A DNA stretch of 64,000 bases from Acetobacteroides hydrogenigenes. Lineage in GTDB: Bacteria; Bacteroidota; Bacteroidia; Bacteroidales; ZOR0009. Position 1 is the stretch's first letter; each line of letters starts with the position of its first letter. Positions 6,565-29,432 of this stretch are shown here, in pieces. Location: the NCBI RefSeq assembly GCF_004340205.1, contig NZ_SLWB01000009.1, forward strand, positions 1 to 64,000. The letters are read 5' to 3'. Both the position numbers and the translations under genes were made by a program. The notes under the pieces were generated by a model. It saw only the letters and a program-made list of their open reading frames with translations. It did not search any database and was not told the DNA's origin.

Positions 6565-9500
6565 TTATTTTGCAACGTTGTTGCCAACGTGGTAGGGTGG
6601 GCCGGTACGTGGAATACGATGAACCTTAATCTTAGCGTCAACTTCTGTACTGCCATTCGTTACCGAATTCTGACAGCCATTGGTATTTGTAACTATAACC
6701 TTAACATCAGGATACGAAACCAAATCAGTATTACCAGCAGGGAATAGCTGATCGTTAGTTGGAGTATGCAATACTGGAGTTTCGCTGTTTAACTCGGCAG
6801 GTAAAATAGAATAGTTGGAAGTTGTTACCGACCATTGGTAGGTGTATCCAACTGCCCCATTCGTGATGCTAAGAGCTGGAGCGTCACCAGCACACTTACT
6901 AATCTCCGAAAGTATAGGAGCCGGAGGCAACGAGTTTACCGTAATACTAATATCGCGCGATAGCGAACTCTTCCCGCAACTATTTACTCCCTTTACCTTT
7001 AGCGTACCACTTGTTGCATTTGCAGCAAAATCTAGTGTAACGCTATTGCCAGTACCGTTAATGGTAGCATTAGTTCCCGTATAACTCCACTCGTAGCTGG
7101 TTGCAAGCGCATCAGCAGGAACAGTATAAGTCACTCCAGTTTCGCCCTTACATACCGAGACATCACTCACTGTAAAGGCACCCAACTGATCGGGTATTTT
7201 ATTCCACGATATCTCACGCTCGTCGTATACATCACTACAACCGTTAGTTCCTGTAAGCGTAAGCCTTACCGTTGCAGTACCCGATGGCGATGAAGGGGTA
7301 AAGGTTGCCAACGCAGGATCGGGACTTTGTGTCCAAGTACCACCAGTTCCACTCCATGTAGGAGTACCACTATATGAACCTGTAGCGGTAGCCTCCGACA
7401 TCTGTATTGGTGATTTTCCTGTACAAATACCTAAAGCATCAGGACCAGCATTAGCAACAGGAGCCTGGTTAACAACAACTGTGGTAGTTGCTGTACCAAC
7501 ACACCCTTTACTATCTGTAACCTTATAAGTAAGGTCGTAAGAACCTCCTGTTGCATTGGCAAACGATGGAGCTAATTCCGTCGTACTTGATAACGATCCT
7601 GCGCCTGTACCTGTCCAACTGTGGGTATAGGTACCTGTTCCGCCAGCAGGTGCTGCCGTAATAACGACTAAAGACCCACTACATACAGAAGGCGCAAGGG
7701 GAGATATGGTTGCCGTTGGTGGAGTGTTGACGGCAACAGAATAAGCATCAGAAAGAGGACCATCACCTGCCGTACAACCGCTTACACCTCTAACTGTTAA
7801 GTATCCAGACGAAGCCGTAGGTGAATAGCTTAAGGTTATGCTATTAGTAGCAGTAACCAATCCCCCTTGAATATCCGAACCTGTGGTATGTTCTACCGCA
7901 CCAGCGTTACTATAGTACCACTTATACCCCGAAGCATTCGCTATTACAGGAACCGTATAGGTATAGGCAACATCACCTTTACACACCGATTGCGCTCCGC
8001 TACTTATATTTTTCTTTTCGGTTACCGAACCTCCATTCGATACATTGATAGCATACGTAGAGGCTGTTCCGATTCCACAACTATTCTTACCGCTTACCGA
8101 GATTGTTGTAGGACCTGCCACACTAAACGAAAGAGATGCCGCCCCCCCCGTAGGGCCAACCGCCACCCCGTTTACCTTCCATTCGTATGATGATGCATTA
8201 TCAATGGCTGGCACAGTATATACAACCGTAGTATTCTTACAAACCGACACATCGCCACCAATCAACCCAGCGGCAGCCGGCTTTGGGTTTACCGTAACCA
8301 CAACGGCACTACTGGTTGACGAGCAGCCCCCAGAATTGGTTGCAATAACATCAACAGATTGAGTTCCGGCAGGTAATAATGTAGTCGGTGGAGTATAAGT
8401 ATTGCTTCCTCCATTTTGCACTACAGCACCGTTTACCCTAAAGGTATAGTTGGTTAAACCACTTGTAGCTGTAAACGTAATGCTAGACCCTTCGCAGATG
8501 GTGTTATCGGCATCGTTACTCGACACCACAACGGTAGGCATAGGGTTCACATTTACGACAACCGATGTTGTACCTGTAATGGTACCAGCAATTCCATTAG
8601 CTGTAATTCCTGTAAGCGTATAGGTAGTAGAGGCTGCAGGCGTAACGGTAATGCTGTATGGACTGGTTGCCAACGGGGGAGTTGTTATGGTTGTTGCCCC
8701 AGCCTTATAGGTAAGGACCCAAGGAGGAGTTCCCGAAAAGGTTACTGTCATAGTGGTAGAACTACCGCTACAAAGATTAACCGTACCCGGGCTAGTAAAC
8801 GATGCCGAACTAGCAGACAATGGCATCACAGAGCCTAGGGTAAAGTGGGTATAGCTCCCAAAACTTACCGACGAGGTGGTGGTTACTGTACCGTTGGTAC
8901 TAGACCCGGAGACAGCAGCCCCATCTCCAACCACCTCCCACTTTGATGTAGTAGCATTCCATCCCACAACCCTTAGGTTGCTCATATCAGGAATCGTACT
9001 CGCAACATCGCTCGAACCGTCGAGAGCTATACTAATTTGCGATTGACCTCCATTAGGAGCCTGTATCTTCCAGTACTCAGAGTGGCTAACGGTAGAGATA
9101 GGCGCTTCGAAACTATCAGTTGGCAAGCCTACGTTAGTCGCATCGGCATAAGAATACGAGGCACTCCAGTCGGTTATTCCGGCAGGACCCGACACGTTAA
9201 GCAACGATATAGGACCATGTGCTTTGGTGTCAGAAAAGTTACCAATAGGGAACGTAAAGTTATTACCCGTCATCATAGCCTTAGTAAGCACACCATTTAC
9301 AAACGACAATGGTATTCCTGCGGATGGAGAAGCGGTAGCGCCATAGTTGAGCTTAAACTGAGTTCCAGAAGGAACCGTAATTAACCCACCAGTAAGCTTT
9401 AGGTCTCCATCAATCTCAATATTGTTAACCACCGACACCCCATTCAAATTATTTACCACAAGATTATTTAGGGCATTTCCATCTACAAAAGTTCCCTTAA

Positions 9501-12500
9501 TAGTTTGAGGTAGGCTCCCAACCATAGCAACAGTAGCATTCACACCACTTCCCGCATCGAAAGTCCCTCCAACCCGTTCTATATTGCCCTTAACACTCAA
9601 GGTTCGGTTGTAGTAGTTTACCAAATCTAATCCAGTATCACCGTCAATAATAAGATTGCCATTTAGCGTTAGGTTATTATTAGGGAAGCGACGCACGCCA
9701 CTTCCGGTAAACAAGAGGTGGTTTACCTCAAAGATGTTCCCCAAAAACTCGTAGCTTTTGTTGGTACCTCCAAACTCTAGCGTTCCTCCTGCTGTAGAGA
9801 AGAAGTCATCGTAAACAGCTGCAGGTATTTCGCCAATCTCACTATAAATGGTACCATTACCGTTTACAATACCCAAACGATGTCCGTAGGTGGAGTAAAG
9901 CATCAGCTTACCGTACACCTCAGTCATGTAGCCAGCAAGGTTATTAGTAGAAACGTCCACTGTATGGGGTGCATTAATCTTAGCAATAGCACCTCTAGGG
10001 CCACCTGCTACATTGGGAGTCCAAACTGTTGCTGTAGTCCAATCACCATTATCTATAGTTTCATATTTAGCTACCTTATCGGGTATTGCACCATTCTTAG
10101 TGGCATCGCAGGCTCCTGCAGTATAGTCGCCGCTTACTCCAGCAGCATCAGTATTAGAGAATAAAAAAATCAAATCTTTGGTACTTTCATCAAATTCATC
10201 TACAGTGAACTTATTCCATGTCCCCGAACCATCCGATAAAAGCCGTGCGGTAATGTAGTCTGCCACCGTATAGGGCGATGTAACCTTCACATCGGCATCA
10301 ATGTACCTCATTCTTGCGGTACCACTAAAGCTGCTCAAGTTATCGGCCTTTAGGGTCCAATAGTATTGAAGCGCATTATCCTTATCTACAATTTGGGTAC
10401 CCGTTTCGGAATCTTCCACAATGCTTGGATGAACCTCATTGGCAGGCTTTACGGTAATACTACCTGTACTACTAGTGTTGCCATCAACCTTTATAGCTAC
10501 TGGGGTGTACTTATCAGCCGACCCCACAGGAAATATAAAGCTGGACTGTGCGCCCGAGGGGAAAAACTTACGCACCCCATTATCGGTAAACGAAATATTG
10601 GTGGTAATCATATTGCTCTTTGAGAAGGTTGATGCCTGCTCGATAACAGCCCCCGACAATAAATCGAGCAGATTCTTTCCTATGTTTAATACACCAGCCT
10701 GCATTTTAAGAGAATTGGTAATCTTTAGTTGGTTGCCCACCGGAATATCTACCCCACTAGGGTTATTTATGGTTAGTTTCCCAAATGTTCCATTACCTGT
10801 TAGTATCTGATTTACGGTACCATTTAGAATAATACCATTGGTTGCTCCCAACGAACTTACATGTAGCGCATCATTTAGCACATTACCTTTTGCCTCTACT
10901 GTATTAGCATTTGTAGTAAAAGTGCCCGCACGTAGCAGAAGCTCATTGCTAACCAGCAACGGAGTATTTATAGCTAGCGTTACATTACTGGAGGATGTTT
11001 TATCAAGATTGTAGAAATCAATAGTACCACCTCCACTTGATACGGTTTGCGTGCCAGTTCCCGAAAAGTAAGTGGTATTCCCCTTCGGAATAAACGTTCC
11101 CTGACAGTTCATATTGCCATTAAGCGTAAGCCCAAGGCCGTTGGCATCGAAGGTTGCACCAGCATCAACCGTAAGCAGGCTGGATATGGTTGCGGGTACA
11201 ACCAGCAGCTGAGCCGTAGGCTTATTTCCACTCTGGTTGTTTACCCTTATCGATGGGAATGGCTTGCCAGCATAAATGCCAATAGTTTGCCCTGCTGGTG
11301 TAGTGCTGTGCCCTATATTAATGTTAGCACCTCCACCAATGTTATAGGTTGTCGGATTAAAGTAGAAAGAAGCAATCTCAGGACTAACTTGCGCACGGGC
11401 GATGTAGAGATCGCCCGCCGTCATGGTAAACGAGCTTCCCGCATTAAGAATCTCAAACACCCCACGAGAGTTGGCTGTTGCCGCATTCTGCCCTACCACA
11501 ACGCTACCGCCAGTTTGCTTGTACTTAAGAATACCCGCATCGGAGGTAAGGCTGCGACGAATCTGCCCGCCAACATTTAGGTTTCCGCCTGAAATATCAA
11601 TGGTTGCATTACCCGAAGCCGAGTATTCTATGGAGTTCTCGCCTCCACCAGTAACCATATCGAGCGTACCGCCGCTAATGGTTAGCGTACCATCGAGAGA
11701 AATGCCCGAATTCCCTATAGCACGTGCAGTACCCCGTTTTATCTCGAGCCCTGCAGTAGAGGGTATATCAAAGTAATCATTCCCTGTTGTTAGGTTTAAG
11801 ATATGCCCAGCGCTCGGGTTGGAGATAAAGGTACCATTCCTCAACTCCAGCGCCTTTGCTACCCCAACGCCCGAAGTTAGACCATTAAGGTTGTAATCCG
11901 TATTAAACTGCGCCGTGGTAGATTGGTTATTCCCCTTGCTAACGACCAAGCGGTACAGATCGGGAACAGTCCCATTTACCCGGTTATACGTCATGCTATT
12001 GGGGCCATCGAGGTAGAGCGTAATACGGTCGTTGTTGTCGCCACTCCATAGGTCCAAACCTGTAGAGGATAGCGTTGATGTTCCTTGAACGATATTACCC
12101 TCAACATGCAGTTCATGGTCGACAAGGGGTGCTGTAGCATTTGGATTCAGAACCTGTATAATGCTATTGCTATTCTTCATCAGCAAGTCTCCTCTAACAA
12201 CAATCTTACGGCGGGTACCCGTATTGCCATAGTTTACCTGAGCGCCACCACCAGAACCATTTTCGAACATGATAAGGTTCCTACCAATGGTTAGATCACC
12301 AGTTGCGCCTGTTGGCAGAACGAGGTTAACATTCCCAAGCAACTCTATATTACCCGTTGTTTCTAACGAATTATCAAAAGTAAAATTCCAATTCTGTCCA
12401 CCCCAGTTGTCATTTGAGATGTACAAGTTTGGGAACAATGCCGGAGTCTTTGAGATATGCCTATTGTCGCTAAAGTTCTCGTAGATGACATACGAAGAGT

Positions 12501-15500: not shown

Positions 15501-17454
15501 TGGTTATGCTGCGGGTATCGCCGTAGTACTCTACGGTACCTTGGCCTGCTGTTATAAAATCGGTGGCATCGCCAGCGGGGAAGTTATCCCCTGCCAAGCG
15601 GATACGACCCGTACCATCTATATAAGTAAAGCTATGCCCTGTTGTAAGACCAAAGTCTAGCGAACCTACTACGTTAATGCGCTTGTTGATTTTCCCATTG
15701 GTTGGAACAGTAACCGTACGACCCGATAGAATAAACACCTCGTCGAAGTCTGAAGTCACCGACGTAGTTGGGGTCAGGTTGTTGGGATTCAACGGTTGGG
15801 TTCCCGAAGGATCGAGCGTCCAAGTAGTGGGATCGTCCCAACTGCCGCTCTTAAGCGAGTAGAATATTTTCTTATCGGGTACAGTTGCCGTCCAAACAGC
15901 ATCAAGGGTTGCAGCAGCCGATGCCCTCAACGGGTTTACCCCAGTAGCGCTAACACCTCTAGGGTAAGCCCAGTTCCCCAACACGGGCTTGTACACCATA
16001 TCGTGTGTACCAAATGTACCTATAGGAGCGTCTCCTCCAAGGTAGGGAAAGCTTACATCGGCCAGAACTGATCCTCCAAAACCGCTGGTGCTGGTAATCC
16101 AATAGCGGAGTAGGGGGGTATTACCCGTAACTCCTACTGCTGGCGTTGCAGAACTGCCGACCCTTACCCACGAATCTGGTGCAACCGTTGCAACTGATAG
16201 GCTGCCCAGCTGCATTGGGGTGTAGGCGCTACCGATACCTATCGGATAGGTCATCACGAAATCGGGGCTGCCATTTCCCTGCTTTACCATGCCGCCGCCA
16301 CCACCAACATCAACCATGCTGGTGCCGCTAAAGGTTCCCACAACGGAGGCAGCAGCACCCAGAGTTAGGTCGTTAGCCCCCAGCACCAGCTTACCGCTGG
16401 TTAGCGTGAATGCTCCATTTATGGTAAGCGGAGTTCCAAGAGTTGCAGTACCCGAAGTTGCCCGATTAAGCGTAAGATCGTTCAGCAGCTGTGCTCCATT
16501 CTCAAAGTATAAAGTTCCCAAATCTCCACTACCAGTAATACTTAGGTTGCTGGCAGCTCCACCAATTAGGGTTCCGGCCGCAGCTCCCGTTCGGGTAGCT
16601 GTCCCCGATAGGTTAAGAGTATTGTCAGCAATTGCAAGGGATCCTTGCTGCAGATCGAGGTCATTATTAACAGCAACGTCTCCCTGCATAGTTTTAGCCC
16701 CTATATTGGAAGTGGTAAGGTTGTAGTAGGTGTAGGCCCCAACACTTTGCGCTCCCGCACCATTGTAGTTAACGGCACCTTGGGTAGGGGCTGATGATCC
16801 CCCGCCTGTAGCACTAGTAATAGTACCGCCAAACATATCGCCTCCCACATTAAGCGTACCAGCCCCTGTGAATAAGATATAGGTTCTAAGATTAGAACTA
16901 TTTAGAGTCACATCTCCATCAACGGTTACACTACCTGAACTTATTCGAACATAAGCATCACGTGTATTACCAGTACCTTCTGAACTAAGAGTAATAGACC
17001 CAGTCCTAAATAATCCTGCATCTACACGTATTGCCTTTTCATCATCATCACTATCAGAATTTAGATAGGTTCCACCAGTAACTTGCAAACTACATCCTGA
17101 ATTAAACTGAAGGTAAGAGTCGTTACCACCTCCATTAATGGTGAGGGATCCTATACTATTTGGAACATCTGCAGTTACTCTAACTGTTGTATTATTTCTG
17201 ATTGTTATGTTTCCTGTTCCTGCATGTTGTCCGGGATATGTTGTTGTTGTAGCCCCTGCCCATGTTCCTGCAGTAACGCATCGCTGCCAGTTTGCTGCGT
17301 TATTCCAATTCCACGTCCCTGTTACTCTCGTACGATAATCACCAACATTCTGCCCCCACCCCACACCCGGAGCGAGCACAAGAGCAAATAGCAGTAAAAT
17401 AGCGACAAGCGTAGCGCGTCGTTGAGCGGCAGTAAAAATGTTTCCCTTACCCAT
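6565..17454 (-). CDS. giant secreted multi-block adhesin-like protein with TGPPYHV tail (copy 1)
   Basis: A 3629-aa exported protein, start taken at 17454 because MGKGNIFTAAQRR and the following hydrophobic stretch match copy 2; cleavage is likely near GVGWG-Q (34/35). Four blocks follow, each starting with a W-rich turn (at about 36, 531, 1511 and 2465; for example FYSLKSGSWDDPTTWT). Each runs through long beta-helix-like repeats (LTINGGG, GNLTVANG, LNVDGGTVN) and closes with an FPxG/YPxG motif (about 405, 1335, 2308, 2735), often followed by a YW motif. From about 2885 on come PKD/Ig-like modules with paired Cys (SVCKG, GCSST). The chain ends RIPRTGPPYHVGNNVAK. No type A or type B T9SS sorting domain is recognisable. 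Role inferred: surface adhesion or matrix, export probably by T9SS. It is the downstream copy of a tandem pair. Confidence 0.85.
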   Translation of the reverse strand: MGKGNIFTAAQRRATLVAILLLFALVLAPGVGWGQNVGDYRTRVTGTWNWNNAANWQRCVTAGTWAGATTTTYPGQHAGTGNITIRNNTTVRVTADVPNSIGSLTINGGGNDSYLQFNSGCSLQVTGGTYLNSDSDDDEKAIRVDAGLFRTGSITLSSEGTGNTRDAYVRISSGSVTVDGDVTLNSSNLRTYILFTGAGTLNVGGDMFGGTITSATGGGSSAPTQGAVNYNGAGAQSVGAYTYYNLTTSNIGAKTMQGDVAVNNDLDLQQGSLAIADNTLNLSGTATRTGAAAGTLIGGAASNLSITGSGDLGTLYFENGAQLLNDLTLNRATSGTATLGTPLTINGAFTLTSGKLVLGANDLTLGAAASVVGTFSGTSMVDVGGGGGMVKQGNGSPDFVMTYPIGIGSAYTPMQLGSLSVATVAPDSWVRVGSSATPAVGVTGNTPLLRYWITSTSGFGGSVLADVSFPYLGGDAPIGTFGTHDMVYKPVLGNWAYPRGVSATGVNPLRASAAATLDAVWTATVPDKKIFYSLKSGSWDDPTTWTLDPSGTQPLNPNNLTPTTSVTSDFDEVFILSGRTVTVPTNGKINKRINVVGSLDFGLTTGHSFTYIDGTGRIRLAGDNFPAGDATDFITAGQGTVEYYGDTRSITTPRTFYSVEVNMDAGKVLTLLANHTLNGNLTVANGTFSISDAAATTALAITVKGDVIVAASGKIATGKANARHQMNLYGNFTNSGEVRFTNRAASNYAAEATDGIVDVNFLNTAASQSVLCKGLTNFYRIEVDKGVDNTYTLNLDATAPANFNLFGYANEDHAPVAQLTANNNALGLIRGTVRIGNSIVIPTLSTANRYNISEAAQLWVNGGTVQKNSGQTIAVYGKLKATTGLLEAKIQNGITLCSNGSLNVDGGTVNINQLRTSDETGGPHNGAYVQSGGAVNVLGGTVNNDHYVFSLPSTASVFNMSGGTLKVNTAAGNGAILINSDPENVKVVGGTVVGETTAADNFRITSRAPFWNLEMKSTAAGSGFFTLGAASNIGAANINVGVQPLRVLNDLKLWGTGEVTSKAITFDPSTNDVYIGGSFIVEKGATYRPISGGAAPYDATASQPTSRNTTYFNKTAGTAAVEELYWGETSSPLELGNIVVDRTTGYEVKVTSGSGRANESVAVDVNGTASVLSGTLNQNLYTIRTWGAIENKGRMGTWYPGVTPSRAQIQIMENPSLILTTSSDAVFGNIQVNVTPPAMLSLTSDTYVERMEYVKGLIYLKGYNLKVDYMWNFNPGLFENSTANSYLSVANSGASGSSMIITDGKASDGGLSLKVTANSLAENQNNIINNFGPLTYPVGFTTDAGSTLYFRPAQMVVKGYADDGYVTIRPVFGSLQTTNQTGGEVLQHYWRVSHSGFATKPTVSYRFYYRNQKTVPNVDLVAGATNEASYVPGKVLDESPYTRLYETSDDIYKTFGGGNSRFITINGTSTGALFTPSAAGITLENANYTAGVQNRFTGSVLIYYTRDVEQQAQWTNPNAWTRSDKLNPLYKPHDSRQPAAGTIPGAGDVAVVGWVPWDDAGRPTLLGQPHCIWIGGVSQQVAEVVFTKMTDAAGNPVPRKYRSNFQFRPTLCIDQPAGQLVAKLVKGEGLFWNRQSDPDYTKMDIGDFARQDSSYVIYENFSDNRHISKTPALFPNLYISNDNWGGQNWNFTFDNSLETTGNIELLGNVNLVLPTGATGDLTIGRNLIMFENGSGGGAQVNYGNTGTRRKIVVRGDLLMKNSNSIIQVLNPNATAPLVDHELHVEGNIVQGTSTLSSTGLDLWSGDNNDRITLYLDGPNSMTYNRVNGTVPDLYRLVVSKGNNQSTTAQFNTDYNLNGLTSGVGVAKALELRNGTFISNPSAGHILNLTTGNDYFDIPSTAGLEIKRGTARAIGNSGISLDGTLTISGGTLDMVTGGGENSIEYSASGNATIDISGGNLNVGGQIRRSLTSDAGILKYKQTGGSVVVGQNAATANSRGVFEILNAGSSFTMTAGDLYIARAQVSPEIASFYFNPTTYNIGGGANINIGHSTTPAGQTIGIYAGKPFPSIRVNNQSGNKPTAQLLVVPATISSLLTVDAGATFDANGLGLTLNGNMNCQGTFIPKGNTTYFSGTGTQTVSSGGGTIDFYNLDKTSSSNVTLAINTPLLVSNELLLRAGTFTTNANTVEAKGNVLNDALHVSSLGATNGIILNGTVNQILTGNGTFGKLTINNPSGVDIPVGNQLKITNSLKMQAGVLNIGKNLLDLLSGAVIEQASTFSKSNMITTNISFTDNGVRKFFPSGAQSSFIFPVGSADKYTPVAIKVDGNTSSTGSITVKPANEVHPSIVEDSETGTQIVDKDNALQYYWTLKADNLSSFSGTARMRYIDADVKVTSPYTVADYITARLLSDGSGTWNKFTVDEFDESTKDLIFLFSNTDAAGVSGDYTAGACDATKNGAIPDKVAKYETIDNGDWTTATVWTPNVAGGPRGAIAKINAPHTVDVSTNNLAGYMTEVYGKLMLYSTYGHRLGIVNGNGTIYSEIGEIPAAVYDDFFSTAGGTLEFGGTNKSYEFLGNIFEVNHLLFTGSGVRRFPNNNLTLNGNLIIDGDTGLDLVNYYNRTLSVKGNIERVGGTFDAGSGVNATVAMVGSLPQTIKGTFVDGNALNNLVVNNLNGVSVVNNIEIDGDLKLTGGLITVPSGTQFKLNYGATASPSAGIPLSFVNGVLTKAMMTGNNFTFPIGNFSDTKAHGPISLLNVSGPAGITDWSASYSYADATNVGLPTDSFEAPISTVSHSEYWKIQAPNGGQSQISIALDGSSDVASTIPDMSNLRVVGWNATTSKWEVVGDGAAVSGSSTNGTVTTTSSVSFGSYTHFTLGSVMPLSASSASFTSPGTVNLCSGSSTTMTVTFSGTPPWVLTYKAGATTITTPPLATSPYSITVTPAASTTYTLTGITANGIAGTITGTTSVVVNVNPMPTVVVSSNDADNTICEGSSITFTATSGLTNYTFRVNGAVVQNGGSNTYTPPTTLLPAGTQSVDVIATNSGGCSSTSSAVVVTVNPKPAAAGLIGGDVSVCKNTTVVYTVPAIDNASSYEWKVNGVAVGPTGGAASLSFSVAGPTTISVSGKNSCGIGTASTYAINVSNGGSVTEKKNISSGAQSVCKGDVAYTYTVPVIANASGYKWYYSNAGAVEHTTGSDIQGGLVTATNSITLSYSPTASSGYLTVRGVSGCTAGDGPLSDAYSVAVNTPPTATISPLAPSVCSGSLVVITAAPAGGTGTYTHSWTGTGAGSLSSTTELAPSFANATGGSYDLTYKVTDSKGCVGTATTTVVVNQAPVANAGPDALGICTGKSPIQMSEATATGSYSGTPTWSGTGGTWTQSPDPALATFTPSSPSGTATVRLTLTGTNGCSDVYDEREISWNKIPDQLGAFTVSDVSVCKGETGVTYTVPADALATSYEWSYTGTNATINGTGNSVTLDFAANATSGTLKVKGVNSCGKSSLSRDISITVNSLPPAPILSEISKCAGDAPALSITNGAVGYTYQWSVTTSNYSILPAELNSETPVLHTPTNDQLFPAGNTDLVSYPDVKVIVTNTNGCQNSVTNGSTEVDAKIKVHRIPRTGPPYHVGNNVAK

Positions 17455-17923
17455 GGTCAAAGAGTGTATAAAGTAGAAAGCGAATAAGTACAATCAGCGA
17501 ACAACCGGATCGTTGCTCAAACGGGGGGATTCTGAAAATACTGCGATAGCGGCACAACGACGTATACGCATACGCCAATCAGCCAACATCTGTAAGATGC
17601 TGCTAACAAAAACCTCTTTAATTTAAACTGTATAGGTAAGGTTTGATTAAAACCAATGCAAAGCCATGTGCTATTGCAATCTTCAATTCTAAATCAGTTA
17701 GTTGCTATTTTCCCTCCTATTAATCCAATTAAATTATTCAAAAGTAATTTCAGCCTGAATGCCCATTTCTATTACAGCCATGGAACATCCCCCATTTTAC
17801 CTACAAATATCAACCTTTTATCTGAAAAGCTAATAGGCATTACTAACAATTTCATATGCCTTAAACATAAAATATGCAATACAAACAACCCTCTTGTCTA
17901 TAGAATAAAGGTATAATAAATCA
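17455..17923. other. gene-less spacer between the two giant genes
   Basis: About 470 bp of AT-rich sequence between the start of copy 1 and the terminator of copy 2. It should carry the promoter and leader of copy 1, but I find no convincing TAnnTTTG box on the minus strand. One small hairpin is present at 17587-17599 (CATCT and AGATG around GTA). The open frame at 17656-17916 has no protein-like features. Confidence 0.5.
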
Positions 17924-17948
17924 TAGGGCCACCCATTGGGTAGCCCTA
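17924..17948 (-). terminator. terminator of giant gene copy 2
   Basis: Just past the stop codon of copy 2 on the minus strand, TAGGGC and GCCCTA pair, then after one mismatch ACCC and GGGT continue the stem to a 3-nt loop. The sequence that follows on the minus strand is T/A-rich (TGATTTATTATA). Confidence 0.6.
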
Positions 17949-17955
17949 CATATAC

Positions 17956-20900
17956 TTACTTTGACACGTTGTTGCCAACGTGGTAGGGTGGACCGGTAAT
18001 AGGTATCCTGAAAAAGTTCAGCATTTGAGTAGCAGTACTCGAGCACCCATTCGCATCCGTTACCTTAACGCTAACCGTTGGTGTTTTAAGCGTACCTGAG
18101 GCAGCATCAGGAAAGAGAGTATTATTGGCTGGCGCTGTAACTCCAAATATCTGTTTATCGGCATCGGTAAGATTATAGGAGGCGTCATCGATGCTCCAAC
18201 TATATGAATAGCCACTTTCCTTAACCTGAACATTAATTGTACCTCCAGCACAAGCTGAGTATGGACTTGCATCTGTGGGCTTTGACACCTGCTCGATAGT
18301 AACAGTAGGAGGATTATTAACGGTAACGTTCCCCTTATCGGTAAGCTCTACGCTACAATTATACTCGTTAGTTGCCCATACGTTGTAAGTTACATTTGAT
18401 GTACCTGCAGTAAATGGCAAATTAGTGTCACCTCCAGGACCACTGCTTACCGCGTTCCCTACATTTGAATTATCAGAAAGCCGTAGCTGGTAATCAATAC
18501 CTGGAGCAGCAGCAGCGACAACCACATTCCCACTTGCTCCCGCACAAACCGATGGATCGGATACAGTATTTATAGCAGAAGGAAGAGGATTAACAGTTAC
18601 GACCAAAGTATTTGGAACAATAGAGGAACCTTTCTCATTCACAGTTACACTATTATTACCAGTATTATCAGCAGTAGTCCAAGTAACATTTATAACATTT
18701 GATGTTGCCCCATTAGTATAGGTACCACCAACAACAGACCAAGTATAGGTATGCGTACCAACCATTGGAGTCGAATAGGTATTTACAGAATTTAAGCAAA
18801 CCGAACTATTCCCACTAACCTTCGGTTCTGGAATATCAGTAATAGACACCTTATACTCAGGCGTAGTTACGCTACATCCATTAATTGTCTCGGTTAGTTT
18901 AAGCGTTCCTGTTGGTCCTGCTCCCCAAGTAACATTCACAGAATTGGTAGTTGCAGAAGTTGGCGTACCTCCTGTTATCGTCCACGAGTAAGTATTACCA
19001 CTACTAGCAGTGCTATATGCTACAACAGAACCTGTAGGAGTTGTGGTTAATCCTGTAATTGCAGGTGTTGGTGATGGCTTAAGCGTTATGGTTGCTGATG
19101 TTGTAAAATCGCTAACACCAGTACTGCCCGTATTATCCTGAACGTATGAGATGGTAAACACGTAGTTGCTAGGGCCACCACTTGCCAACACAGGCAATGC
19201 ATTCGAAACAACTAAGCTATAAGGCGAAGTTGCAATATTTGCCACTGTAGTCTCATTCCCTCCATTAATCTTATACTTAATAGTCCAAGGCCCAGTTCCT
19301 GTTAAGGCTATAGGGATAGAGGTAGTGGAACCATCGTTACAAATACTTGTCGTGCCCCCCGTGATTGTTGCAGTAGGCAAGCTCTCAACCCCTATTGTCA
19401 TAATATGATTTCCATCCAAAGAGGTTGTTGGCGATGTTTTAATTGTACCGCTGGTTTGTCCTCCATCGGTTACAACATTCCCCCTATTTACCCACGATGA
19501 GGTTACCCACTCTACCACGCGCAGCTTACTACGCGAACCTGCTGTTGGAGGAATAATACCACTTGCATCATCCCATCTAAGAGTCACATTGCCAGCTGCA
19601 CCTCCAGGTCCTATAACCTTCCAATACTCATTCGTACTTACCTTGTCAACAGGTGCGGTTCTTGCTTCAGGATCATATCCCGCTGCTTTCGTATCTTGCT
19701 TATAGTACTGAGAGGTATAATACCCAGATACTGAAACTTCAGAAAGCACAACCCTACCAATTCTAGAGTCGGAAGCATCACCAACGGGGAATGCGAAGCT
19801 TCCACCTGCATTCATCTTCTTTTGGAGCGGACCATTTACGAATGATGACGAGCTGCCACCTACCACTGCACTAGAGCTGGTGTTGGTAATGCTAAGCAAG
19901 TTTGTGGTAGAGGTTGTTATATTACCTTTGGTAAGATAAAGCAAATTTGCAACAGCCGCTTTACCAGAGCCAGCGATAGTCAAACCTGCTGCATTATCTA
20001 TTTTAAGGTTGTAAAACTGCTCGGTAGTTGTTCCATTCGCAACAGTTAATGTCTGAGCGGTTGTTCCGTTGAAGTTTACAAGTCCCTTACCAGGAATAAA
20101 GCCCCCCGTTACAGACGTATTGTTATCGATCCAATTACCTAAAGCGGTAATAGTTCGATTAAAGAGTTCGTTGCTTAAGGTTGCACCTGAATTTATAGTA
20201 AGATTCCCCAGCACTTTTAAATCCTCCGCAGTAATCAGCTTTTTACCCGTACCCGAGAATATTACATTCTGGTAAGGCTTATAGTTATTACCAGGCTTTA
20301 GAGGCAGTGTTGCCTCATTATTGCCAGTAAACTCAATTGTACTACCTGCAGTTGACGTAAAGACATCAAAATTACCTCCAGGAAATACAAAAATTCCATC
20401 ATTAGTCGAGGTTAAAACCAGCTTACCACCACCAGTAACATGACCAATACTATGGTAAACCGTCAAGCCTACATCTAAAGTACCCTGAATATCTACCGAA
20501 AAAGCTTTTGCCTCGTTGCTACCTAGGTAAACACGGTGTTCTGCTTTAATAACAACAGGGTTACCATCTGGAATACAATCGCAAGAGGTGGTTCCAGTAG
20601 GAGAATAGGACCATGTTCCCTTTTCGAACCAGTTAGCATTTGTTTTTATGCTATACAATGTTTTCTTATTCCAAAAGTTTTCCTTTAGTCCAGCGGTATA
20701 CTCTCCATCTAGGTAGCCTACATTTGTCAGATTGATTGTATGCAATGCGCTACTAACACTTGCATTAGCAGCAACCCCATTCTCCTCAATCCAAACTCCA
20801 TTTAGATAACGGCCTACTTTGTACTGCGCCTCATTGCCTAATACATCAGATGCTTTGTAGCTGTACGCCTGGGTTACAGAATAAGCGCTGGAGAAGTTCT

Positions 20901-23900
20901 TTACAGCCACATTCCAGTAATACTTCAGCTGGTCACCTTCAGGAGCAAGCGCCGCAGGATGCACATAGTTTACAGGTTTTACCGTTAGCTCGCCCGCACT
21001 ATTTGCATTTGTAGCGAAGCTATAAGTAGCAGGCGTATACTTCCCTGCGACTCCAAACGGATAGGTAAACGTTGAAGCACCAGCATTAAATATCTTCTTT
21101 ACTCCAGCATCGGAAATCACACCATTAAGGATAATCATCCTACTACTGTCATTAGTACCAGCAATAGTAGCATCCTTACCTAGCGTTAGCAGGTAATCGT
21201 CGAGGTAGATGCTTCCTGTAGTAAAGGTAAGCTTACCGTCTATTCCAAAATTATCTCTAATAACCAACCCTAGAGAATTATTAACGATAACATTCCCAAA
21301 GATTGCAGCCCCGTTACCTGACACCACCTGAGGCTGTCCTCCCTCGAAGCTAATACCTCCATCGCCACTAGGGCTTACATGCTTTGCCTGGCTGTAAACA
21401 TTTCCTATTTGGGTAATGGAGTTACCGCCATCGCTTAAAACACCCGAATTTAACGAAAGATTACCGTTAACCCGGATATTCGAGTTTGGATTTAAGGTAA
21501 GGGTACCCGATGGGGCAACTATCAAATTGGCGAAGTTCGTAAGGTTTGCTCCGTTACCCGATATGGATTGATTGGTGCCGTTAAAGGTTGTTGTTTGGGT
21601 TAGAGAACCAGCTTGGTAGCCGCCCGTTGTAACCCCCGTTGCAGCATTGCCATTCTTATTGATTAAGCCTCCTGCAATGGTAACATCCAAACCATTTGCC
21701 ATAAAGGATGAGTTCCCATTAATGGTAAGATCACCCTTCAGAACTAACGGATAGATATTAAGAGCGCCTTTCTTGCTACTGGTGGTTCCATCTACGGTTA
21801 AATTCCATAGAGGAACAGATGTAACTATATTAAAGGTAGAATTTGCAGCGGATACACCAGATCCAAGAACGACGGTACCACCCGTTACCGTGCTATTTTC
21901 GGGAGCAAGGTAAAGATCGGGAGAGCTCGAACTATTAAAGTTCCCCGTAATGGTTAGCTTGCTATCCCCGCTCATGTCGAACTTACTGCCGGCATTCAGG
22001 ATCTCGAGCATCGATCGTGAATTATTGGCATTACGTCCTGCTATGGTAACCTCGCTACTCCCCGATTGCGAGTAGTTAAGCGATCCGGTGTTAATCGTAG
22101 TAACCCTTCTGATCTGTCCATTGACAAATAGCTTACCTGTACCGCCTACAATAATTTCGGGAGTACCTCCTGAAGAGTATTCTATGTCGTTGTTAAGATT
22201 ATTACCTAATGTACCAATATTTACAGCACCTGCCAGTACCTCTAAACGACCATCGAGCTTAAGGTCGGTTGCATCATCAGCAGCAGTTCCTCCAATATTA
22301 ATGGTGCCACCGTTAGCCGAAAGACATCCCGAAATAGGAATCGTAAAGCTACCCGAGTTCGTTAGCCCCAAGGTAATAGGACTTGTAAGCCTAAAGGTAC
22401 CGCTAGTGAGCGTTAACGCTGTTGGCAACGACGTATTTAGCGATAGCGCAGCTGATTTAACCTCTAGGAGCGTATTGCGCGAGGTTCCCTTGTTTACCGT
22501 TATCGTATTAAAGTTGGTCGTAGTGCCAGTACCGTTTATCTCCTTATCCGTATCGCCCGTAAAGGTTACATCGCACAGCCTAGTTGAACTTTTATACATA
22601 TCGAAGGTTCCATTGTTGGTAAGGTTACCCTGAATCGTCATCTTGTTTAAGGCGCTACCTCCGTTATTAACATCAAATGTTCCATCGACTACAACATTGC
22701 CATTAGCTACAACATTTTGCACACCACCATTGACGAATCGGAGGGTTCCGCTTGCCTTCACTTCGAGCAACGTGTTCACTGTAAGAGTTCGAGAAGTAGC
22801 CGTACTATTTAACTGCGAAACACCTGCTCCACCAGCCGAATAGGTACCGTATACCAAAACTTCGGAATTAGGGAGTGTAACTGTGTTACCTCCAGCAGGA
22901 GCCGTAACGAGGTTATTGTAGGTAGCAATATTCACGGTTGTACCAGCCGACACATAGGTAGTAGGCAGCACAAACGAGCTGCCAAGCGTAGATGTACTAT
23001 AGTACTCTACCGTACCACCTCCACTTGAGAGGAAGTTTCCAAAGTCTCCCCCGGGGAATTCGGCTGTTGCTGCAGAAGAGGATATTCGCAATGTTCCTGT
23101 TCCTAACACCTTAGAATCGGGAATGGCTCCAAAGTTATGGCCAGTTGTTGTGGTAAGATCGAGCGTAGAGCCAGAACTAATCTGCAAACCTCCAGTTGTA
23201 ATAGTTTTGTACCCAACAGGAACAGTAACCTTATGGTTGTGTGTAGCATCACCAATTACAACAGGGTTGTTAGGACCTGGGATATTCACACCTTCCACCG
23301 ATCCTGTAGCAACCGCAGCACCTCCTACCGAATCAGTAGACCATGTATCGCTATTGCCCCATTCACCTTCATCAACCCTACTATAGAATACCTTCACAGG
23401 CATAAATGCATTTGGTTCTCCTGCAGTATAGTCGCCATCAACATAGCTAATGCCACTAAAGTTGATAGTATTAGTATTGTCGACAACCTTCGATGGGTCG
23501 TTAATTGGCACCCAGCTATATGGACGGTAGGCTGCTGGAATATAGCTTGCTTCAACACCATTGGTAGCATCAGCATCTACATACTGGTAGCTATGCGTTA
23601 CCGAACTGGGCTGCAAGCCTCCAAAACCAGAGCTGGTTACCTTCCAGTAGTAGGTTAGCGCATTAGTAGATGTTGCAAATGGCTGTATCTGTGCCACAGG
23701 GCGTACCGTTACAGCCCCCCAAGCCGCTGGGGCTGTACCTATCCTAATATTGGCAGGGGTATAGTCGCTTGCCGTACCAATTGGGTATAGGAAGTTGGCT
23801 GTCGTGCTATACGCCTTAGTGACACCAGCATCGCTCTGCAAACCGGCAAGCTTTATCATTTTAGCTCCACCGAAGCTTGCCGTAGTAGTACCCGTAAGCG

Positions 23901-26900
23901 CATCGTACACGTTACTGGCACTACCTAGCTTAAGGTTATAGCTGCCGATATCAAGCACTCCAGCAGCAAGCCTAAGGTTGCCCTCTACCGATTGGTTTGC
24001 TGTAAGCTTAGCGCCTGCCCCATTGTTCAGATTTAGGTTGCCAAATATGCCGTTGCCATCTCCACCTACTATTTGGTTGGCAGTACCATTTAATAGTATT
24101 GCCCCTGACGCTTGGCTGGTATGCGTCCCCGAGTTGGTAACATTCCCGTTTACACTTATGGTATGCCCCACATCGTTTAGGAAGCAACCCGAATCGAGGG
24201 TTAGGTTGTTACGAACTATTAGGTTATTCGAGTAAATGTCGAGGTTGGACTTACCAGCAACTGTAAGGTTATAAAGACCATTACCACCCGTTCCTACGGT
24301 TCCAAGATTTGTAAAACGCTGCCCAGACAAACCATTAAAGGTGGTTGTATTACTTCCAGAAAGATAGTACGTTCCTGTATTAAGAAGAAAATCACCACCA
24401 ATAAGTACATCCTTACTATTTGTATTTAATGTGCTGGATCCGTTTAAAGATAGATTATGAAGAACAATCAAAGAAGGAGCTGTAATTGCTGGAACGTAGG
24501 GCAAACTTCCATTTTGTAAATAATCTTGTAAGTAGGCAGTTCCTGCTCCCTGAATATTTAAATCCCAAAAAGGAGCGGATGAATTTATGTTTCCCTGCCC
24601 TCCTGTTGGTGTAGTAATATTAATTGTACCACCTGTAACATTAATATTACTTGGATTAGCACCTATAATAAGACTAAAATTTCTTCCACGACCTGTGGCA
24701 GAAGAGGGTGCCAAAATGTTAATTGTGCCCCCACTCATTTTAAAAGCCATTGCACTGTATGGGAGCATAAAACTAGCCGCAAAGTCAGTCTTACCTCCTG
24801 TTACATTAACAGTACCTCCCGTCTGATAATAGGCCCCACGGTGTGCACCAAGACCATCCTGTGATGAAACACGAAGAGACGTAATATCAAGTTGACCGCC
24901 TTCAACACTTAGTAGGCCTGTAGTTCTCATTACTAGACCATTGGTTCCATTCTTTATGTCAAAATAAGAATTTTCTGAAATTCGAAGCGTTCCGTATACT
25001 ACTGGAGTAAAATTCTGATTATTAGCATTCCAAATTACTGTTGCACCATCCAACCACAACCTTGCATCTTCATCTATATTGTATACACCATGGTCTCCAT
25101 CCCAATTGTCTGTTCCTAAGCATGGAATTAAAACATTATTCCCTAAACGTACAGTTCCAGCAAGAAGACCAAGCGCATTGAGGTTTGGCAGATTTGGTGG
25201 CGTTTCGCTAGGCAGATAATGCTGTTGATCATTCCTTCCAAACAACTTAAAGTTAGCAGAAGCACTTGCATCAATATTCAGCACATAGGTTTGGTCGAAG
25301 CCCTTATCAATCTCTATGCGGTAGAAATCGCTCTGTCCGTTACAGAGCAGGCTTTGGTCGGCAGTGGCATTATTGAAAACAACATCAGAACGACCGTTAG
25401 CAGGCGTAGCAGTGTACTGAGGAGCAGCTTGATTGGTAAATCGTACCACCCCATCGTTGGTAAAGTTTCCCTTAACCTCAATTCGGTGCTTGGCATTACC
25501 CGTACCAATACCTATGCTACCATTAGCCGAAACATACACATTACCCATTACGGTAAGGTTCCGGCTGGTGGTTGAGGTATTACTATTTATCTGTAGCTTA
25601 CCTCGGGTTACCGTTAGGTTGCCGTTTACAGTCATATTGCCTACCAACGTTGCAACATTAGTATTCGCCGAAAGATTTAGAATAAGGTTATTGTAGATTA
25701 GCTGCCCAAAGTTGAAGTCAGCACTATTGTAGTACTCCACCGTACCGCCACCTGCCGAAACAAAGCTAGACCAATCGGCGGTTGGAAATGCGGAATTGCT
25801 AAGGCGTACCAAACCCTGACCACGAACCACCGTAAACGACTGCGTAGTAAAATTGCCAAGGTCTAGGGTACCACCCTCGTTCACCTGTACCGATAGTACG
25901 TTGTAGTTGTTCTCGGTTGTCGCTACCGTTCTACCGTTAAGGATAACCACCCTATCGTTAGGAGTTGGTATCGCTGGTGCCACCGACAGCGTACCCGAGG
26001 GGTCGGTTGTCCATGTGGTGGCAACATTCCAATCGCCCGATTGGTACGAGTAGTAGGTGGTGTACTTGGGCTGCTCGCGCGCAGTCCACTGCCCTGTTAG
26101 TCTGGTTGCACCGGTTACCGCCATAGGGTTTGCACCGGGGCCGCTTGCCGTAGTAGGCACGCTCCATGTAGTACCATTATAGTACCAGGGTATATAGTTG
26201 GCCTGATCGCCACCTGCACCTACCTCACTATTGTTGTAGGCCATCCTTACGTTGGCGGCAATGCCCGATAGGCCAGAGGTTGCTACAGCCCAGTACTTCG
26301 TTAGGTCGGTATCGTTAGCACCCGTAGCCTTCGATGCTACAGCCCTAACCGCAACGCTGCTGGTAGCCGTTGCCGTAGCCGTAAGCGATGTTATTTCGTA
26401 TGGGGTATAGTATGCTCCAGTACCCACTGGGTACACCATAACAAAATCTGCAGCTGAGTTTCCCTGCTTAACGAGGCTTCCGGTTCCATCACAAATCACC
26501 ATATGGTTGCTGTCGAAGCTGCCGGATAGGGTTGCCCCATCGGCAATTGTTAGGTTGTTTGTCCCTGAGCCAAGGCTGATGCTTCCGTTGCTAAGGTTTA
26601 GCGTACCGTTCACGGTAACGCTTCCCTGCATGGTTTTAGTTCCGCCACCCTCTATGGTAAGGTTGCCATAGTTCAAAGCCGCCACATTCTGCGCCCCACT
26701 TGCCCCATAAACAACCGTTGAGGCAGCATCTAACACCTCTGTACCCGACCAGATAGCATCGCTGGCTACGTTGTGGTTGTAGGTAGCGTTGGCATCGAGC
26801 TGGAAGGTGGTGTTGCCTGATAGGGTAACTGCTCCACTGGTAGCCGTTAGCACTCCACCTCCTTGTACCTGTACCTTAGTATTAGCACCAGAGACAGACC

Positions 26901-27768
26901 AACCAGCTGCTGTAGTAGTCATGGTATGGCCAGGCTGTACAATAAATATTTGATTAGGCAGAGTAAAACTTGTAGGAGATAAGCCTCCCATTGTTTTCCA
27001 ATTACCTAACACATTGGGATCACCCGACCCTTGTGAAAAGAAAACAGGAGGTACAAAGGCATAAACCTGACCCGTTACAGGTCTTGTGCTAATATTAGTA
27101 ATTTCGTTCGTCGTACTTGTTGTTGGCGAAGCAGAAACATCTTGTAAGGATATAAAATTCCCGTTGCCAGTCGATCCATTTGTTATGCCAATTGATGCAG
27201 TTCCCGAATTTACAGCAGCTGCCTCCCTCTTATATATGAACTCTATCTTACCCGATGTCTCATATAACTTTACTTGAAATGAGATAACTTGGCTATTTGC
27301 TTTCCAATTCCATTCAGCCCCATACCATTCGAGAGTAAAGACCCGGTTAGGATACACACCCGTAGTTGCCGAATTCATAGTCCCCGATGTCATGTCTAAA
27401 TCGTCCCATAGAGGTGCAATAACTGGTCGTGTACCTCTACTTGCCAAACCATTATTACTTGCAGCATCAGTAATATTTTGACCAAATGTCATCCACCCAT
27501 TAGTAGATGCAGACACCGAAGTATAATCAACGCCACAATACCTAAAGGTAAAACCTATTGGGATTGAGTTACTCACTTCATCGTCTCCTCCAGTCAATTG
27601 GGTACTACCAGCACCTAAAGCACTAAACGTACCCGAACTTGCAGAAAAAGTATACTGTGATAGCGTTTGCCCCCACCCCATGCCCGGAGCGAGTAGAAGA
27701 GCAATCAGAAGAAGAGCGACACGCGTAAAGCGTCGTTGAGTGGTAGTAAAAATGTATCCCTTACCCAT
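17956..27768 (-). CDS. giant secreted multi-block adhesin-like protein with TGPPYHV tail (copy 2)
   Basis: A 3270-aa exported protein, paralogous to its downstream neighbour. The signal peptide starts MGKGYIFTTTQRR and ends about residue 34 (GMGWGQ). Four blocks open with W-rich turns at about 240 (VLGNWKTMGG), 570 (YYSYQSGDWNVATTWT), 1461 (FYSRVDEGEWGNSDTWST) and 2369 (LYSIKTNANWFEKGTWSY). They continue as beta-helix-like repeats and close with YPxG/FPxG motifs at about 446, 1328, 2234 and 2659. Ig/PKD-like modules fill about 2800-3150. The last ~110 residues match copy 1 in spacing (Cys-Ala-Gly, Tyr-x-Trp-Ser, LFP, NGC) and end RIPITGPPYHVGNNVSK. No known T9SS C-terminal domain is seen. Long disordered-looking Thr/Ser/Asn/Gly content fits an extended surface protein. 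Function is inferred from architecture only. Confidence 0.85.
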   Translation of the reverse strand: MGKGYIFTTTQRRFTRVALLLIALLLAPGMGWGQTLSQYTFSASSGTFSALGAGSTQLTGGDDEVSNSIPIGFTFRYCGVDYTSVSASTNGWMTFGQNITDAASNNGLASRGTRPVIAPLWDDLDMTSGTMNSATTGVYPNRVFTLEWYGAEWNWKANSQVISFQVKLYETSGKIEFIYKREAAAVNSGTASIGITNGSTGNGNFISLQDVSASPTTSTTNEITNISTRPVTGQVYAFVPPVFFSQGSGDPNVLGNWKTMGGLSPTSFTLPNQIFIVQPGHTMTTTAAGWSVSGANTKVQVQGGGVLTATSGAVTLSGNTTFQLDANATYNHNVASDAIWSGTEVLDAASTVVYGASGAQNVAALNYGNLTIEGGGTKTMQGSVTVNGTLNLSNGSISLGSGTNNLTIADGATLSGSFDSNHMVICDGTGSLVKQGNSAADFVMVYPVGTGAYYTPYEITSLTATATATSSVAVRAVASKATGANDTDLTKYWAVATSGLSGIAANVRMAYNNSEVGAGGDQANYIPWYYNGTTWSVPTTASGPGANPMAVTGATRLTGQWTAREQPKYTTYYSYQSGDWNVATTWTTDPSGTLSVAPAIPTPNDRVVILNGRTVATTENNYNVLSVQVNEGGTLDLGNFTTQSFTVVRGQGLVRLSNSAFPTADWSSFVSAGGGTVEYYNSADFNFGQLIYNNLILNLSANTNVATLVGNMTVNGNLTVTRGKLQINSNTSTTSRNLTVMGNVYVSANGSIGIGTGNAKHRIEVKGNFTNDGVVRFTNQAAPQYTATPANGRSDVVFNNATADQSLLCNGQSDFYRIEIDKGFDQTYVLNIDASASANFKLFGRNDQQHYLPSETPPNLPNLNALGLLAGTVRLGNNVLIPCLGTDNWDGDHGVYNIDEDARLWLDGATVIWNANNQNFTPVVYGTLRISENSYFDIKNGTNGLVMRTTGLLSVEGGQLDITSLRVSSQDGLGAHRGAYYQTGGTVNVTGGKTDFAASFMLPYSAMAFKMSGGTINILAPSSATGRGRNFSLIIGANPSNINVTGGTINITTPTGGQGNINSSAPFWDLNIQGAGTAYLQDYLQNGSLPYVPAITAPSLIVLHNLSLNGSSTLNTNSKDVLIGGDFLLNTGTYYLSGSNTTTFNGLSGQRFTNLGTVGTGGNGLYNLTVAGKSNLDIYSNNLIVRNNLTLDSGCFLNDVGHTISVNGNVTNSGTHTSQASGAILLNGTANQIVGGDGNGIFGNLNLNNGAGAKLTANQSVEGNLRLAAGVLDIGSYNLKLGSASNVYDALTGTTTASFGGAKMIKLAGLQSDAGVTKAYSTTANFLYPIGTASDYTPANIRIGTAPAAWGAVTVRPVAQIQPFATSTNALTYYWKVTSSGFGGLQPSSVTHSYQYVDADATNGVEASYIPAAYRPYSWVPINDPSKVVDNTNTINFSGISYVDGDYTAGEPNAFMPVKVFYSRVDEGEWGNSDTWSTDSVGGAAVATGSVEGVNIPGPNNPVVIGDATHNHKVTVPVGYKTITTGGLQISSGSTLDLTTTTGHNFGAIPDSKVLGTGTLRISSSAATAEFPGGDFGNFLSSGGGTVEYYSTSTLGSSFVLPTTYVSAGTTVNIATYNNLVTAPAGGNTVTLPNSEVLVYGTYSAGGAGVSQLNSTATSRTLTVNTLLEVKASGTLRFVNGGVQNVVANGNVVVDGTFDVNNGGSALNKMTIQGNLTNNGTFDMYKSSTRLCDVTFTGDTDKEINGTGTTTNFNTITVNKGTSRNTLLEVKSAALSLNTSLPTALTLTSGTFRLTSPITLGLTNSGSFTIPISGCLSANGGTINIGGTAADDATDLKLDGRLEVLAGAVNIGTLGNNLNNDIEYSSGGTPEIIVGGTGKLFVNGQIRRVTTINTGSLNYSQSGSSEVTIAGRNANNSRSMLEILNAGSKFDMSGDSKLTITGNFNSSSSPDLYLAPENSTVTGGTVVLGSGVSAANSTFNIVTSVPLWNLTVDGTTSSKKGALNIYPLVLKGDLTINGNSSFMANGLDVTIAGGLINKNGNAATGVTTGGYQAGSLTQTTTFNGTNQSISGNGANLTNFANLIVAPSGTLTLNPNSNIRVNGNLSLNSGVLSDGGNSITQIGNVYSQAKHVSPSGDGGISFEGGQPQVVSGNGAAIFGNVIVNNSLGLVIRDNFGIDGKLTFTTGSIYLDDYLLTLGKDATIAGTNDSSRMIILNGVISDAGVKKIFNAGASTFTYPFGVAGKYTPATYSFATNANSAGELTVKPVNYVHPAALAPEGDQLKYYWNVAVKNFSSAYSVTQAYSYKASDVLGNEAQYKVGRYLNGVWIEENGVAANASVSSALHTINLTNVGYLDGEYTAGLKENFWNKKTLYSIKTNANWFEKGTWSYSPTGTTSCDCIPDGNPVVIKAEHRVYLGSNEAKAFSVDIQGTLDVGLTVYHSIGHVTGGGKLVLTSTNDGIFVFPGGNFDVFTSTAGSTIEFTGNNEATLPLKPGNNYKPYQNVIFSGTGKKLITAEDLKVLGNLTINSGATLSNELFNRTITALGNWIDNNTSVTGGFIPGKGLVNFNGTTAQTLTVANGTTTEQFYNLKIDNAAGLTIAGSGKAAVANLLYLTKGNITTSTTNLLSITNTSSSAVVGGSSSSFVNGPLQKKMNAGGSFAFPVGDASDSRIGRVVLSEVSVSGYYTSQYYKQDTKAAGYDPEARTAPVDKVSTNEYWKVIGPGGAAGNVTLRWDDASGIIPPTAGSRSKLRVVEWVTSSWVNRGNVVTDGGQTSGTIKTSPTTSLDGNHIMTIGVESLPTATITGGTTSICNDGSTTSIPIALTGTGPWTIKYKINGGNETTVANIATSPYSLVVSNALPVLASGGPSNYVFTISYVQDNTGSTGVSDFTTSATITLKPSPTPAITGLTTTPTGSVVAYSTASSGNTYSWTITGGTPTSATTNSVNVTWGAGPTGTLKLTETINGCSVTTPEYKVSITDIPEPKVSGNSSVCLNSVNTYSTPMVGTHTYTWSVVGGTYTNGATSNVINVTWTTADNTGNNSVTVNEKGSSIVPNTLVVTVNPLPSAINTVSDPSVCAGASGNVVVAAAAPGIDYQLRLSDNSNVGNAVSSGPGGDTNLPFTAGTSNVTYNVWATNEYNCSVELTDKGNVTVNNPPTVTIEQVSKPTDASPYSACAGGTINVQVKESGYSYSWSIDDASYNLTDADKQIFGVTAPANNTLFPDAASGTLKTPTVSVKVTDANGCSSTATQMLNFFRIPITGPPYHVGNNVSK

Positions 27769-29130: not shown

Positions 29131-29432
29131 AGTCACTTCTTTTAGTTATTATTTGCAATAAATTTAAATAGAACACTAATTAACGCGCAAGCCTATGTTT
29201 TAAAATAATTTACTTTTAACTTGATATTTAACCATATTTAGCTGGTGAAAGCCGAGTGATTATCCTTTGGTGATAAAAAACGCCCCATAGTCAAAAAGCT
29301 TTAGGAAAACCCTAATACAAATGCATTTCTTTGCTAAACAACCATATTAACCGAATAAAAAAGAAAACGAAGCATTTCTGTAACTGATTTTTACCATATA
29401 GCGGAAGCCATATTGGGTGTCTCCGATATGGT

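Follow-up and report, generated by a model that had tools for sequence, protein, structure and literature searches.

The window analysed here, a stretch of 64,000 nucleotides of the Acetobacteroides hydrogenigenes genome (contig NZ_SLWB01000009.1, positions 1 to 64,000), contains two adjoining genes on the minus strand coding for giant secreted proteins. Giant 1 (P0001, 6565..17493) comprises 3642 aa when read from a TTG codon; an ATG near 17454 (MGKGNIF...), matching the start of its neighbour, is the more likely start. Giant 2 (P0002, 17956..27768), a paralogue of giant 1, comprises 3270 aa. Both begin with a signal peptide, judged by eye from a basic-hydrophobic N-terminal stretch up to GWGQ, which is followed in giant 1 by a long repeat region, PKD/Ig-like domains (with a Pfam PKD_6 match) and a short C-terminal tail, and in giant 2 by repeats, Ig-like domains and the tail.

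The C-termini read HRIPRTGPPYHVGNNVAK in giant 1 and FRIPITGPPYHVGNNVSK in giant 2. The tails proper, RIPRTGPPYHVGNNVAK (6568..6618, minus strand, 13 residues long when counted from TG) and RIPITGPPYHVGNNVSK (17959..18009, minus strand), are each preceded on the same strand by a domain with approximate limits of 6619..6906 (Ig/PKD-like, giant 1) and 18010..18297 (Ig-like, giant 2). Within their last 160 residues the two proteins align with 32% identity, and the CAG, YxWS, LFP and NGC landmarks are present. The longest identical DNA run at the tails is exactly 26 bp; among the four tails of this genome such an identity is peculiar to the adjoining pair, the other two tails belonging to a protein of 509 aa on contig 22 and to one of 319 aa on contig 1. 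The two open frames, their near-identical ends, the landmarks and the 26-bp run had all been described in the initial annotation of this locus, which also recognised neither a type A nor a type B T9SS C-terminal domain (CTD). This last point agrees with the profile searches: no T9SS sorting domain of Pfam or NCBIfam, the type A (TIGR04183) and type B (TIGR04131) profiles included, matches either giant at E<=1, and besides the signal peptide no export signal was found on the giants in these scans.

The pair had further been placed beside a T9SS locus, which holds only loosely. The window contains a PorP/SprF-like barrel (32400..33362, minus strand; TIGR03519, 244 bits) and, beside it, an SprB-repeat giant with a type B CTD (33374..43282, minus strand; TIGR04131, 73.8 bits), whereas no core secretion genes were found among the window proteins scanned, which represent part of its genes. 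SprF and SprB are treated in the accessible part of PMC12635249. Both genes are regarded as context only, the SprB-like protein being an ordinary type-B protein and the PorP/SprF-like gene being distinct from the PorP-like gene of the tail module described below (G000:C1:663095-664021). Nine type A CTDs above the cut-off were found in the window's genome, none of them on the window's contig; the corresponding type B search gave three matches, two of them above the cut-off, one being the SprB-like neighbour. A DUF6261 gene (28204-29136) adjoins the tail giants, and DUF6261-like genes, as judged by eye, also neighbour tail proteins on contig 22 (L055 598-1524) as well as in G001 (L047 9167-9919) and G002 (L043 15750-16739).

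A family of C-terminal tails

The tail is a real family, with the motif xPxTGPxYH[I/V]xN and about four further residues. A profile of 19 seed tails, those of both window giants among them, was used without anchoring to stop codons in a six-frame search of 295 genomes of the order, and it matched 80 places at E<=0.05 across 31 genomes; the tails of the window giants themselves were found with E=6.9e-14 and 9.0e-13. A stop codon follows at most 8 codons past the match in 55/55 cases at E<=1e-4, in 68/70 at E<=0.01 and in 74/80 at E<=0.05. Of the 55 strongest matches 36 are non-seeds, and these are C-terminal without exception. Internal hits, named beforehand as an observation that would speak against a sorting signal, are thus absent at E<=1e-4.

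Several other matches were rejected as tails: those in G266, G009 and G084:C189 are internal, the one in G221 lies in a frame that reads on past it, the one in G177 is out of frame within a transposase-like frame, the one in G155 falls in a short frame, and the one in G128 (E=0.042), a genome in which SprA is not found, contains a stop. Those in G177 and G155 belong to the 68 terminal matches at E<=0.01. In G084:C171, a protein of at least 1400 aa, the tail extends 12 codons beyond the match.

Curation removed three of 68 pattern rows (L127, L124 and the type-B protein of L045), and of the other 65 tails 62 entered the alignment (A4). T and G are invariant throughout this alignment; a few other terminal matches have AG, SG or PG instead. 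Counted from TG onwards, 42 of the 65 curated tails have 13 residues, and the others range from 10 to 16. All curated tails are confined to 25 of the 295 genomes. Matches at E<=0.01 among 296 genomes sampled from the phylum were obtained only in the window's own genome, a partial match in G546 (E=0.006) aside, and tblastn detected no relative in a first scan of named genomes.

Possible divergent tails were noted within the genus, namely RRPETGAVYGMKNQQ in a giant of G001 (contig 119, L124 5030-10000) that is matched nine times by Ig-like domains from the type-B protein introduced below, and, in G002, RRPETGAVYGQRNGI in a short frame (L177, G002:C1:1081625-1081678) and LPVTGPVYKIENNLPK at the end of a protein of another kind of at least 895 aa (L180 2812-5499).

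The small tail protein, its module and the secretion genes

Each of the 25 genomes with curated tails codes for a small, unannotated secreted tail protein of ~300 aa (lengths as read, about 260-440 aa), whose signal peptide by eye mostly ends AxAQ-like. Conversely, the full-length small protein (E<1e-50) is found in 25 of the 295 genomes of the order, and these are the same 25; in the 296 genomes of the phylum it is found only in the window's own genome, all other matches being partial. The small proteins share a mean identity of 29%, the tail being among their best-kept parts. The two examples scanned belong to no Pfam family above the cut-off and to no NCBIfam family. A match to the type C CTD (ChiA; NCBIfam NF033708) was likewise found neither in these two proteins at E<=0.1 nor in the window giants at E<=1.

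The gene of the small protein is followed in 25/25 genomes, on the same strand, by one for a protein with a type B CTD, with up to three further small genes in between. A PorP/SprF-like gene comes next in 21/25; the contigs of G185 and G247 end before it, and G119 and G170, which do have the tail and the type-B gene, have none adjacent. These neighbours were called by an HMM built from 7 of the operons. In two operons the type-B neighbours scored 52.6 and 50.4 bits with TIGR04131 (cut-off 35) and the PorP-like neighbours 221 and 228.2 bits with TIGR03519 (cut-off 90.55).

The same arrangement emerged when a more closely related set of small proteins was used for a second search, which yielded 23 loci, at least four of them contigs of the first set and all of them from metagenome-assembled genomes labelled Bacteroidales, Bacteroidota/Bacteroidetes, Marinilabiliales or Rikenella. 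The small protein, which in L157 is truncated where the contig begins and was identified from its tblastn match alone, is followed by the type-B gene in 23/23 loci (one broken by Ns) and this by the PorP-like gene, again in 23/23 (truncated by the end of the contig at two loci and about 5 kb off at one). Upstream of the small protein, 11 of the 23 loci carry a further protein with the tail at its end, in most cases a larger one (8 recognised by pattern and 3 by eye; several cut at their start).

In the window's genome, the module is located on contig 1 and the two tail giants on contig 9, where no adjacent PorP/SprF-like gene belongs to the module; the module would therefore act in trans. No sampled genome has a curated tail without the module. 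The converse is not exact, as the profile misses divergent tails. Deviating arrangements comprise a second small tail gene in G275 without a type-B gene beside it and, among weaker partial matches to the small protein, part of which were followed, cut small proteins with an altered tail followed by type-B and PorP-like genes in G045 and G243, and a divergent set in G270, in which a protein of at least 1418 aa ending PKTGVTYLLPNYGNKE and three small proteins with other tails accompany type-B and PorP-like genes. Further small paralogues, most of them with an altered PxPxTxPIxHIxN-like tail, occur in the operons of some lineages (L050 9865-12624; L102 6280-7185; L104 8453-9421; L107 7134-7958; L118 7382-8215; L121 8014-8964; L182 3-644; L184 6818-7108). 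Many of the module's PorP-like proteins (e.g. L151 12196-13191) end GDxARRYRWLNR[F/Y]-like, an end that the window's PorP/SprF-like protein (32400-33362) does not have.

A structure prediction of the small protein based on 22 sequences (mean pLDDT 83.6) depicts a strand-rich molecule, for which a structure search returned only generic tandem Ig-like folds and a sequence search of solved structures no match. The last strand of the model ends at residue 288, and over residues 291-305 the mean pLDDT drops to 68 and then 47; the tail is hence predicted to lie outside the fold, in a region of falling confidence. The model of the type-B protein (mean pLDDT 83.3) matches rows of Ig-like domains, GhpA first.

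In profile-profile comparisons (hhalign), the C-terminal ~120 residues from a set of 14 giants and larger tail proteins matched the type B-CTD protein of the module with a probability of 95 (E=1.7e-8), the alignment running through the Ig-like domain and about 9 residues into the CTD. In several giants the pair of Ig-like domains before the tail matches the pair preceding the CTD in the type-B protein, and therefore the tail stands about where the CTD would. Given the overlap of about nine residues, the tail may be akin to the start of a type B CTD, although hidden homology to that domain was not supported, its remainder staying outside the alignment. Hidden homology to the type A CTD was not supported either, eight of the nine type A CTDs of the genome giving a probability of 0.07. 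Against the small proteins, the giants' last domain aligns over 24 tail columns alone, which does not support the tail being a generic ending of an Ig-like domain. Consequently, the shared C-terminal region of the initial annotation shrinks to the last ~17-24 residues, the preceding ~100 residues being an Ig/PKD-like domain which, by profile comparison, the small tail proteins lack; a match to an existing CTD family, which had been named as a possible refutation, was not found beyond the few residues of type B mentioned above.

Hits had been expected only in genomes with PorU, PorV and SprA. This holds for SprA and PorV, which are present in 25/25 tail genomes, but not for PorU (NF033707), which is matched in 21/25; the genomes without a match are G151 and all three of the window's genus (G000, G001 and G002), where PorU may have diverged. 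Type A CTD proteins are processed by PorU. If PorU is absent from these genomes, the tail cannot depend on PorU processing. Despite this missing PorU match, SprA and PorV are present in the genus and nine matches to the type A CTD in G000; one of the three genomes is a single contig. A curated tail was found in none of the 19 genomes of the order in which SprA was not detected (incomplete genomes among them), nor is the G128 match a tail, so that the remaining refutation named beforehand, hits in T9SS-negative genomes, did not occur in this sample; since SprA is present in 276 of the 295 genomes, this co-occurrence is weak evidence.

Co-variation of tails and codon use

The tails of small proteins and giants resemble each other more closely within than between genomes, with mean BLOSUM scores of 31.1 and 19.0, respectively (28 genomes or loci; permutation p=5e-5, the smallest possible value), and 25 of the 28 lie above the mean of the others. 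Grouping by GTDB family where known, with each named locus counted as one group, left 17 groups and the same p=5e-5, relatedness above the family level remaining in the test. Without the window's family and within the class of 12-13 residues, 12 groups gave p=5e-4. The second small protein of L104 and the duplicate contigs L144, L151, L156 and L158 were left out of the analysis. Tail length co-varies between giants and small proteins as well (rho 0.73; by family 0.92). The 13 residues upstream of the tail, on the other hand, show no within-genome effect (p=0.99, 0.98 and 0.43).

Where small proteins and giants have identical residues in their tails, the codon is shared in 154 of 366 cases vs 155.8 expected from codon usage, and DNA exchange was therefore rejected as the cause of their likeness. 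Together with the missing upstream effect, this places the co-variation at the protein level. Among giants of the same genome codon sharing exceeds expectation (137/251 vs 103.6). The 26-bp run of the window pair, whose codons agree at 10 of 13 shared residues (other pairs of this genome: 3-4 of 9-11), fits this excess, and it may go back to DNA exchange. That the tails of otherwise unlike proteins are kept in step suggests a single common reader as the simplest explanation. As for its identity, a partial distance-matrix comparison singled out no component: PorP is the best correlate of tail distance (r=0.46), though it may simply be the best phylogenetic proxy; the signal of the Ig-like domains of the type-B protein disappears after allowing for PorP, and its CTD showed none.

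Possible role of the tail

The initial annotation interpreted the tail as a sorting or anchoring signal. Its terminal position, its strong conservation on signal-peptide proteins that share little else and its distinctness from type A and type B CTDs agree with this proposal. We consider it somewhat more probable than not (roughly 0.55) that the tail is a docking or targeting peptide which is carried by the giants and the small protein, is read by the type-B/PorP-like module and places the giants on the cell surface. It would act as a short C-terminal recognition peptide on giants and on the small (~300 aa) protein, in both of which no T9SS CTD was found, and would be presented on a flexible stretch after the last Ig-like domain. 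A common partner from the small protein's module would read it, the candidates being the ~350-aa type-B-CTD protein of Ig-like domains and the PorP/SprF-like outer-membrane barrel; the giants would then reach the surface either exported together with this CTD-bearing carrier or docked to it once it is anchored on the barrel. We infer the type-B/PorP-like pair as the reader, SprA as the route of export and anchoring as the outcome. According to the accessible parts of the literature, a type-B protein assembles with its PorP-like partner into a complex at the surface, for which neither PorU nor PorV is needed (PMC9143113), and type-B substrates require cognate PorP/SprF shuttles (PMC12618676).

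More tentatively, the tail could represent a fourth class of T9SS C-terminal signal next to types A, B and C named in a review (PMC10202324, accessible part), and one that is read in trans: a hook of ~13 residues on cargo without a CTD, whose matching bearers are carried or anchored by an adaptor set. Such a set would consist of the tail protein, the type-B-CTD protein and the PorP-like barrel, and one module would serve several giants.

A rather unlikely alternative is that the tail acts on its own as a minimal sorting signal ('type D') read directly by SprA or by a PorP-like shuttle, the small type-B protein being just another client. Its placement after homologous Ig-like domains, about where a type B CTD sits, would suit such a signal, as would the correlation of PorP with tail distance in the confounded test above and the precedent of one shuttle with several clients, three orphan type-B substrates sharing Fjoh_1677 in the accessible part of PMC12618676. 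With 13-17 residues, however, the tail falls far below the known CTDs, of which type C has about 100 residues and type B is reported to need >200 (PMC10202324, accessible part). Alternatively, another signal might export the giants and the tail might serve the assembly of subunits after export, e.g. by donating a strand to an Ig-like domain in either the small or the type-B protein. This is in keeping with the tail's predicted position outside the fold, with the Ig-like nature of both potential acceptors and with the co-variation of the giants' tails with that of the small protein; yet no export signal besides the signal peptide was found on the giants, and both the position of the tail and the operon fit targeting, which makes assembly unlikely.

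If the tails were domain ends kept alike by common descent or gene conversion, with no role in signalling, this would account for the codons and the 26-bp run shared by the window pair and for the giant-giant codon excess in general. This reading is very unlikely, however: small-protein/giant pairs lack this excess, the profiles of the two kinds of protein have only the tail in common, all 55 strong matches are terminal, and no curated tail occurs in a sampled genome devoid of the module. A divergent type A CTD, cleaved and attached by the PorU sortase, is barely conceivable. The presence of PorV (25/25) and PorU (21/25) in tail genomes speaks for it, but the three genomes of the window's genus are all rich in tails and have no PorU match, the comparison with type A CTDs of the same genome gave next to no probability, and the tail is too short for that fold.

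Compared with the known systems, the tail and its module most resemble type B (TIGR04131 / PF13585 CHU_C). Both signals are C-terminal, follow Ig-like domains on giant signal-peptide proteins and are linked to a PorP/SprF-like barrel (TIGR03519 / PF11751), in the case of the tail module in 21/25 genomes and 23/23 loci of the second search; for type B, complex formation is reported to be independent of PorU and PorV (PMC9143113, accessible part). In contrast to the 85-position TIGR04131 model, the tail has 13-17 residues, no predicted fold and no family match, and there is one module for several giants, with the type-B domain residing on a separate small protein. The type A CTD (TIGR04183 / PF18962) is likewise a C-terminal signal on secreted Bacteroidota proteins, but it has an Ig-like fold (PMC12618676, accessible part), a 72-position model and is read by PorV, whereas the tail has no profile match. 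The type C CTD (ChiA) is a further class of C-terminal T9SS signal, differing from the tail by its length of about 100 residues (PMC10202324, accessible part). Finally, the giant grappling-hook protein GhpA of Aureispira (9flp and related entries) has Ig-like domains that match those before the giants' tail and resemble the type-B model; the likeness is limited to these domains, as the aligned stretch (profile positions 1-76 of 119) stops before the tail.

The literature searched, which covers few subscription journals and no bioRxiv preprints, contains no match to strings of the tail motif and nothing on point concerning a further T9SS signal class, piggyback export or giants with PorP operons. 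If the docking role holds true, it shows how proteins without a CTD reach or stay on the Bacteroidota surface, adds unannotated giants to the predicted surface proteome and provides a very small tag for surface display. The shortness of the peptide makes it testable how type-B carriers choose and hold their partners.

Besides its module, G150 contains a second set of genes (contig 164, L186 1322-7000), in which another type-B-like gene is preceded by those of a larger protein with the end NPVTHN, of a small one with the end NPITHN and of two further small proteins that look secreted. This set possibly represents a second tail class (NP[V/I]THN) with a reader of its own, since a pairing of tail and reader would lead one to expect divergent sets in which a different tail comes with a separate type-B gene.
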